Part shown: piece after piece, positions 1 to 1,238 of the stretch
Layout: every line of letters starts with the position of its first letter
Numbering within the stretch: position 1 is the stretch's first letter
Assembly (NCBI RefSeq): GCF_000706645.1
Contig: NZ_KL407337.1
Location: 555,355 to 599,664 of the forward strand
DNA: 44,310 nt
Direction of reading: 5' to 3'
Source: Bartonella rochalimae ATCC BAA-1498
Lineage (GTDB): Bacteria > Pseudomonadota > Alphaproteobacteria > Rhizobiales > Rhizobiaceae
Notes under the pieces: model-generated
The model's input: the letters and a program-made list of their open reading frames with translations, nothing else
The model's database searches: none
Told to the model about the DNA's origin: nothing
Position numbers and translations under genes: made by a program

Positions 1-1238
1 TCTGATAAATTAAAAATAAGCTCCGCCTTAACACCATTATAAATAGCGGTACTATTAGGAACAATAAAATTTGTTTTTTTCAAAGAAATAGTTGCAGATC
101 TTTCAAACTCCTTGTCCTTGTCATCACTAACAGAAGGTACTCCATACATGCCATAATATTTATCACCCTCTATTTTAACGTCTACATTTTCAAGATTTAC
201 ATTCTCTTTCTCCTCCTCCTCCTCATCATCTTCTTCATCGTCACTCTCATCTTCATCACCATCTTCATCTGCTGTCTCATAATCTTCTGTATCCTCATAT
301 GGTGAAAAGTCAAATACAAATCCATTCCCACTTTTGAGATGAACTTTCCCTTCCTTCATCTCAAAAGTACTCTGTGGATGCATATAAACGGCAGCACTAC
401 GACTATAATCTACATTCTCGTTCGTCTGGACAGAAGTATTATCATTAATAGTATCATTAATAATATTAACTTTCTCTAAAGAAACCTCTCCTGTATTCAT
501 ATAAACTGCGGAACTTAGAGTAAAATTAATGCCTGCATCCGATTTATCTATACCCTGCATATCAATATAGCCACCTTTTGTAGTGAAAAGACCTTTACCC
601 CCTTTTAATACTAAAATATTTGTATCCAATAGCTCAACTATAGAACTTGAACCCTTAGCTTTAACAGCAATCTTATTATTACTTATCAATGTCTTATCTG
701 CGTTTACCGAACTATTTTCTACAACAGAAATACCTATCGTTAGGTCTTTTAAGGTCAATTCATTAGCAACAATTGTTCCCCATTCCCCGAGCAGTATACC
801 AATATAAATATCATCATCACTGTGTACGGGGCCTAGAATTTGCACTTTATTTACATTAACATTACTAGTATTTACATTCTCTTCATCACTCGAACTCGAA
901 TATATACCAATTACTCCACCGGTTTCAGAAGTTTCACTGTCTGTCCGTTTCCTACTATTATTCCGGTTAGAATTATTTCCCATTTGATATTTTCGGTCAT
1001 TTATCTGTCCATTTACACTTTCTTTACACTCTTTCACAATGAAAGTACGGCTACCCAATTTCATAGTGGTCTTGTTCGAACTTGAAGAAGCTTTACCGTT
1101 CGCAGCGTTACTTTTCTGACACTTCTTAACAGAACCAGCCTCATTAGCAAAAGAAACATTAGAAGGACTAACTAAAAGAGTATTAAGTATGAGAAAGAAA
1201 GAAAGAAAGAAAGAAAGAAAGAAAGAAACGCGCAACAT
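1..1238 (-). CDS. Autotransporter AT1, N-terminal part (runs off left edge)
   Basis: The reverse strand is open from an ATG at 1238 to the window edge (412 codons), so the C-terminal barrel lies outside. The N-terminus reads as a signal peptide: MLRV, then SFFL three times, then a hydrophobic stretch ending in a likely cleavage site after VSFA. The SFFL repeats are encoded by nine GAAA units (1193-1228). The passenger is rich in N, S, V, T and I with short beta-strand-like repeats, as in pertactin/AIDA-type beta-helices. It aligns closely with the AT2 passenger; positions 1-95 are identical to 6937-7031. An acidic D/E-rich stretch (about 204-300) replaces a neutral segment of AT2. No strong ribosome-binding site precedes the ATG, in contrast to AT2. 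A good promoter lies 37 bases upstream of the start. Likely a surface-exposed or secreted adhesin-like protein; the ligand is unknown. Confidence 0.85.
   Translation of the reverse strand, partial: MLRVSFFLSFFLSFFLILNTLLVSPSNVSFANEAGSVKKCQKSNAANGKASSSSNKTTMKLGSRTFIVKECKESVNGQINDRKYQMGNNSNRNNSRKRTDSETSETGGVIGIYSSSSDEENVNTSNVNVNKVQILGPVHSDDDIYIGILLGEWGTIVANELTLKDLTIGISVVENSSVNADKTLISNNKIAVKAKGSSSIVELLDTNILVLKGGKGLFTTKGGYIDMQGIDKSDAGINFTLSSAVYMNTGEVSLEKVNIINDTINDNTSVQTNENVDYSRSAAVYMHPQSTFEMKEGKVHLKSGNGFVFDFSPYEDTEDYETADEDGDEDESDDEEDDEEEEEKENVNLENVDVKIEGDKYYGMYGVPSVSDDKDKEFERSATISLKKTNFIVPNSTAIYNGVKAELIFNLS
1193..1228 (-). repeat. Tetranucleotide microsatellite (GAAA)9 in signal-peptide codons
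   Basis: Nine uninterrupted GAAA units on the plus strand (TTTC in the coding sense) start 11 bases inside the AT1 reading frame. Because the unit is 4 nt, gain or loss of one copy shifts the frame, while a change of three copies restores it. The current copy number keeps the frame open. AT2 has no such repeat in its signal-peptide region. Confidence 0.97.

Follow-up and report, generated by a model that had tools for sequence, protein, structure and literature searches.

Organization of the locus

The window, that is the whole stretch of DNA analysed, comprises 44,310 nucleotides of Bartonella rochalimae ATCC BAA-1498 (C1:555355-599664 of a 1.53-Mb genome). At its left edge lies the 5' part of the open reading frame AT1, the continuation of which (C1:549070-555354) is present as N. 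A paralogue, AT2, is contained entirely in the window, while a second one, AT3, enters it at the right edge with its 3' end. The coordinates are collected in Table 1.

Table 1. Positions and characteristics of the features located in the window.
Feature	Position	Strand	Remarks
AT1, 5' part of ORF	3..1238	-	412 codons from ATG at 1238; runs on past the window edge
(TTTC)9 tract	1193..1228	-	nt 11-46 of AT1; encodes hydrophobic core of the probable signal peptide
Probable signal peptide of AT1	1146..1238	-	31 residues, ending ...NVSFA; cleavage site placed by eye
12-codon upstream ORF	1238..1276	-	TAA overlaps the AT1 ATG (TAATG); similar in AT3
Promoter-like site	1282..1310	-	TTGAAA-17-TATAAT; 11/12 consensus matches; block aligns with five relatives
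AT2, intact paralogous ORF	5112..8225	-	1037 aa; no tract; autochaperone and barrel domains
Bacterial RNase P class A RNA	33544-33932	-	RF00010 (Rfam)
AT3, 3' end	44201..44310	-	110 nt; 96% likeness to the AT2 3' end; a run of N precedes it, on the side of the 5' part

As sequenced, the AT1 frame is uninterrupted from its ATG to the window edge. Tandem Repeats Finder locates 9.2 copies of the repeat with 100% matches at 1192-1228, and on the minus strand the TTTC units number nine, all of them perfect. Together with the reading of the ORF, this confirms the original prediction that nine perfect tetranucleotide units start 11 nt into AT1 and are at present in frame. Dinucleotide-preserving shuffling of the window, repeated 100 times, did not produce even four units in a row, which rules out (TTTC)9 as a chance tract. 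Judged from the codon usage of 18 ORFs in the window, and given the amino acids, the 11 AT1 codons lying wholly inside the tract have a probability of about 10^-5.6, whereas the most probable set of synonymous codons would have 10^-2.5; as the actual codons are improbable, the repeat is a property of the DNA and more than the peptide demands.

The tract encodes the core of MLRVSFFLSFFLSFFLILNTLLVSPSNVSFA, by eye a good signal peptide with a best 12-residue hydropathy of 2.68, and translation and hydropathy are in line with its proposed role as the hydrophobic signal core. The cleavage site was placed with the -3/-1 rule for signal-peptide cleavage sites. When the existing sequence is read past the tract in the other two frames, one comes to a stop following ...FLSFSYLILF, the second following ...FLSHT. 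AT1 has several sequence features of an SSR contingency locus: a perfect non-triplet tandem repeat within the 5' end of the ORF, early stops off-frame and no in-frame restart that would keep export. A possible weak exception is a TTG that lies 22 nt before the ATG and opens one other frame into the tract; one "off" class of AT1 might therefore still be weakly translated, and this counts against an ON/OFF reading.

A true start downstream of the tract, singled out in the original prediction as the fact that would speak against it, was looked for and is rejected, since the first in-frame ATG there falls beyond the signal peptide and none of the in-frame starts after the tract keeps that peptide. 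The alignment of the upstream promoter-like site and of the ATG across relatives also argues against such a start; the automatic alignment pairs the AT1 ATG with the first ATG of the relatives, and its distance to the tract also resembles that of their second. The promoter scan gave six sites in the stretch versus 4.6 in shuffles. With a count so near that of the shuffles, the weight of the promoter-like site comes from its conservation in an aligned block of six copies.

By eye, AT1 has no clear purine-rich Shine-Dalgarno sequence close to its ATG, unlike AT2, which has AGGTGG; the difference in ribosome-binding sites between the two genes had been noticed correctly, and extra control of AT1 from a weak site is plausible. 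The 12-codon upstream ORF opens 6 nt past the TATAAT and could be leaderless and coupled to AT1, replacing the missing ribosome-binding site. In the same form it is not kept in the related genome G042 or in Bartonella clarridgeiae.

We consider it probable that (TTTC)9 is a translational phase-variation switch, that is an SSR contingency locus, placed among the codons that specify the signal peptide of a type Va autotransporter.

AT1 and its paralogues in the B. rochalimae genome

AT1 is a putative type Va autotransporter through its paralogues, its own 3' part lying outside the readable sequence; the first 412 amino acids give no domain match in Pfam or NCBIfam. AT2 contains AC_1 (PF18883), TIGR01414 and PF03797. 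The last of these was matched with 67.4 bits in a separate PF03797 search, despite not being listed in the Pfam scan for AT2 or for the two G042 proteins described below, a gap in that scan that counts against the switch. That AT2 is intact without a tract counts against the switch. The absence of a tract from the start of all nine other autotransporter ORFs read in the B. rochalimae genome (AT2 and eight more) counts in its favour. AT1 and AT2 can be compared in two neighbouring stretches (1-203/6937-7139 and 432-731/7353-7652), in one of which they are 93% alike and in the other 78%, which suggests a mosaic produced by recombination between paralogues.

AT3 is located 45 kb from AT1, with its start at C1:601783 and its 5' part at C1:600010-601783 (the locus retrieved spans C1:599000-608000). 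Over the 412 readable residues of AT1, the two proteins show 95% identity. The tract recurs in AT3 at the same site, again as nine perfect units of TTTC, preceded by an extra TTTCTT that adds two more codons. The two genes diverge in and just after the tract, and beyond it there are two differences in 1,073 nt. Upstream, the likeness is confined to the last 100-150 bases and the loci differ farther up.

Downstream of a motif that both genes contain, AT3 has 456 nt against 1,278 in AT2, so that its 3' part falls short by about 0.8 kb. If the run of N has its true length, the passenger and the carboxy-terminal segment are in different frames across it. The profile search reports no PF03797 barrel at AT3, the locus being partly N and thus partly unsearchable. 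AT3 may therefore be incomplete downstream and broken. The functional status of both genes, with AT3 apparently incomplete and AT1 read at its 5' end only, counts against the switch. These features, together with the position of the AT1 3' part beyond readable sequence, would fit AT1 and AT3 being decaying copies, or recombination reservoirs for AT2, in which the repeat is without present effect. This explanation we hold to be very unlikely, as no stop interrupts the 412 readable codons of AT1, as its promoter-like site is strong, and as related species keep uninterrupted genes that carry repeats.

Repeats at the homologous site in other Bartonella

The set used for the genus contains 71 genomes, one per species, and the pattern counts cover its searchable sequence and the units named here. 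Five or more TTTC units occur in one of the 71 genomes, at two places only, AT1 and AT3. Four or more TTCTC units also occur in a single genome, G042, again at two places only, which are both in paralogues of the family; these are nearly identical to each other and have (TTCTC)7 and (TTCTC)6 at the homologous site. In B. clarridgeiae (G015, with a ligA identical to that of the B. clarridgeiae record L059), the homologous site is occupied by (TTTTCTCTTC)3 in both copies, and a pattern of two such units was found in 1/71 genomes, at those two places only. As a control, the AT-rich tetramer TTTA was absent as a five-unit repeat from all 71 genomes; the two tetramers tried (TTTA in none and TTTC in one of the 71) do not support a genus-wide habit of tetranucleotide repeats.

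A search with the 412-residue AT1 protein matched 19 of the 71 genomes, mostly weakly. The 26 loci obtained from it, of which some weakly matched ones stop short of the gene start and some contain stretches of N, were examined for units of 1, 2, 4, 5, 7, 8 and 10 nt repeated in tandem. Repeats at the signal-peptide site were present in three genomes only (B. rochalimae, G042 and B. clarridgeiae), at two loci each. The remaining repeats are runs of three TAAA or TTGA, one A9 and one C10, the last of these being a G10 on the coding strand and upstream of its gene. Of 14 weakly matched loci that were read, 11 have a readable frame, with T7 runs in the signal-peptide codons of three. Poly-G runs are found near the gene start in two loci, ten residues long in L031 (G021, near 2701) and eight in L024 (G035); they resemble the mononucleotide loci in the part of PMC11466379 available to us.

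The relationships between these species were taken from a ligA tree of 12 genomes, chosen by hand from the 71, and record L059. The nearest relatives of B. rochalimae in this tree are G010 and G041 (Bartonella sp. AR 15-3), with a support for the group of only 82/85, and G042 and B. clarridgeiae form a sister pair (97/94). One member of the family was found in G010 and two in G041; all three lack a repeat of this kind, and their signal-peptide codons have only stretches of six to eight T. The repeats were therefore either lost in G010 and G041 or gained more than once, and their absence there counts against the switch. In the G010 member, a stop codon interrupts the passenger frame.

A polypyrimidine stretch coding for phenylalanine, leucine and serine is easily made in an AT-rich genome, and the nine units found in each of AT1 and AT3 are what a frozen tract would show; both points count against the switch. 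They lead to an explanation by neutral slippage, in which a core of this composition sometimes expands, switching is not selected and purifying selection removes the out-of-frame lengths. Such recurrent local expansion would fit the unlike units (4, 5 and 10 nt) found at one site in related species, the equal and in-frame unit counts of AT1 and AT3, and the short T runs of G010 and G041, which lack the repeat. Against it stand the 7- and 6-unit paralogues of G042, which are in different frames, the lack of such a tract at the start of the nine other B. rochalimae autotransporter ORFs, the improbability of the exact AT1 codons and the fact that all three units found are non-triplet. We consider neutral slippage unlikely. 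The phase-variation reading, on the other hand, gains independent support from AT3 and from the two related species, because they carry non-triplet repeats at the same site.

Two start codons in G042 and B. clarridgeiae

The genes of G042 and B. clarridgeiae have two ATG codons, 16 nt apart and in different frames. In G042, the first ATG of the 7-unit gene reads into the passenger. That of the 6-unit gene leads to a dead end after 25 amino acids, and here it is the second, 16 nt downstream, that gives access to the full passenger. Both are uninterrupted ORFs, of 951 and 962 amino acids. An autochaperone domain is found in both proteins by Pfam, and TIGR01414 in the one scanned with NCBIfam.

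Between about +400 and +2,900 nt the two G042 genes do not differ at all. Counted per 100 columns, their likeness is 95-100% in the 300 columns upstream and falls to 62-88% in the first 300 columns, the region of the tract. Recombination seems to homogenise the bodies of the paralogues and to spare the switch region, as the patterns of likeness in both G042 and B. rochalimae suggest.

The double start would also fit a tuning of export rather than an on/off switch, an explanation that overlaps with the main one. The units would then alter the length of the signal peptide or the choice of start, and so the amount exported. With their two ATGs, two of the three length classes are translatable in the related species, giving a charged or an uncharged amino-terminus. 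In B. rochalimae the upstream TTG that opens a second frame into the AT1 tract, and the two additional codons that precede the nine units of AT3, point the same way. On the other side, a single ATG of AT1 reaches the passenger and its other frames end soon past the tract, and we judge tuning in place of switching to be quite unlikely.

Comparison with known repeat systems

In the excerpts of PMC5118866 that were available, the closest counterparts are AutB and AutA of Neisseria meningitidis and AutB of Haemophilus, which, like AT1, have a tetranucleotide repeat just past the start, the number of units setting the frame. In AutB, an autotransporter, the repeated unit is AAGC and lies in the codons of the signal sequence; length variation and phase variation among isolates are documented there (PMC5118866). 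The AT1 unit is TTTC and not AAGC, so that AT1 is likened to AutB in its working and is not classed as an AutB protein. The Opa proteins of Neisseria offer a further parallel and are not autotransporters. They have a CTCTT repeat in their leader codons and form a multi-locus family that is switched copy by copy (PMC3745409, in part), as is proposed here. The TTCTC of G042 is a rotation of this unit (PMC3745409); AT1, with TTTC, falls outside the Opa family in this respect, and it is only the G042 relatives that hold such a rotation. The Bartonella genes also differ from Opa in that the unit is not the same in related species at one and the same site. Lav of Haemophilus influenzae is, according to the available text of PMC2651432, encoded by an autotransporter gene with a CAAG tetranucleotide SSR, and shares with AT1 both of these properties but neither the unit nor the host.

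Within the genus, frameshifts in an SSR dominated the evolution of badE of Bartonella krasnovii during rodent passage, as told in the portion of PMC11466379 at hand. As in AT1, the SSRs of these loci lie near gene starts, with frameshifts in surface genes. They differ in being mononucleotide tracts, from a survey limited to tracts of nine or more, and badE codes for a trimeric autotransporter adhesin, unlike the type Va reading of AT1 (PMC11466379). The published SSR contingency loci of Bartonella in that portion are all mononucleotide and include one beta-barrel autotransporter with a C11, which was seen in the ON state only. For badA, reshuffling has been suggested, with slipped-strand mispairing as one possibility (PMC8859334 and PMC10936683, both in part). 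Mono- to deca-nucleotide SSRs have been counted in 145 chromosomes, those of Bartonellaceae included (PMC4516964, in part), and tracts like that of AT1 may sit uncommented in its tables.

Among the matches listed, which scarcely cover subscription journals, none reports a Bartonella contingency locus with tetra- or pentanucleotide units. The suggestion that the repeat had not been described for this gene family thus holds narrowly, with mononucleotide SSR loci described in other Bartonella (PMC11466379) and the same anatomy in AutB (PMC5118866), as far as the available parts of these papers go. What appears to be new is the second (TTTC)9 in AT3, the other non-triplet repeats in relatives and the unusual turnover of the unit between related species.

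Proposed phase variation through the signal-peptide codons

In the proposed mechanism, TTTC units would be gained or lost through slipped-strand mispairing at replication. Whenever their number is a multiple of three, as it is with the nine found here, a ribosome starting at the ATG at 1238 would read into the passenger and the protein would be exported; with other counts it would meet a stop codon soon past the tract and no surface protein would be made. As all frames of TTTC code for phenylalanine, leucine and serine, a change of three units would make the hydrophobic core four residues longer or shorter, and tuning of the signal-peptide length in such steps, also part of the original prediction, is plausible. 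Paralogues of like design would allow the surface repertoire to be switched locus by locus. Of the ON/OFF switching by slipped strands predicted for AT1, the repeat architecture stands, and with AT3 and the non-triplet repeats of two relatives a switch is the best explanation for it; slippage in vivo, ON/OFF expression and a benefit in immune evasion or host change are what we infer from it.

More broadly, and as a tentative proposal in which we have somewhat less than even confidence, the signal-peptide codons could be a slippage site maintained in one Bartonella lineage. Its unit (4, 5 or 10 nt, never a multiple of three) would have turned over between related species with the switch being kept, and recombination would homogenise the paralogues around the tract and not at it. 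The result would be an Opa-like multi-locus switch outside Neisseria, with the two ATGs in two frames providing extra states in related species.

If true, Bartonella, which is persistent in mammalian blood, uses repeats with longer units of the Neisseria and Haemophilus type, beyond its mononucleotide tracts. Surveys confined to mononucleotide SSRs, as that in the available part of PMC11466379, would miss such loci. The series of 4-, 5- and 10-nt units would also be a natural experiment on whether a slippage site can change in sequence and still be kept by selection.

Other features of the window

A G11 run at 36023-36033 was considered as another contingency tract and rejected, as it overlaps only an unconvincing 83-codon ORF with a GTG start. 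This region contains no Rfam family at the gathering threshold. By eye, the run adjoins a stretch resembling an inverted repeat.
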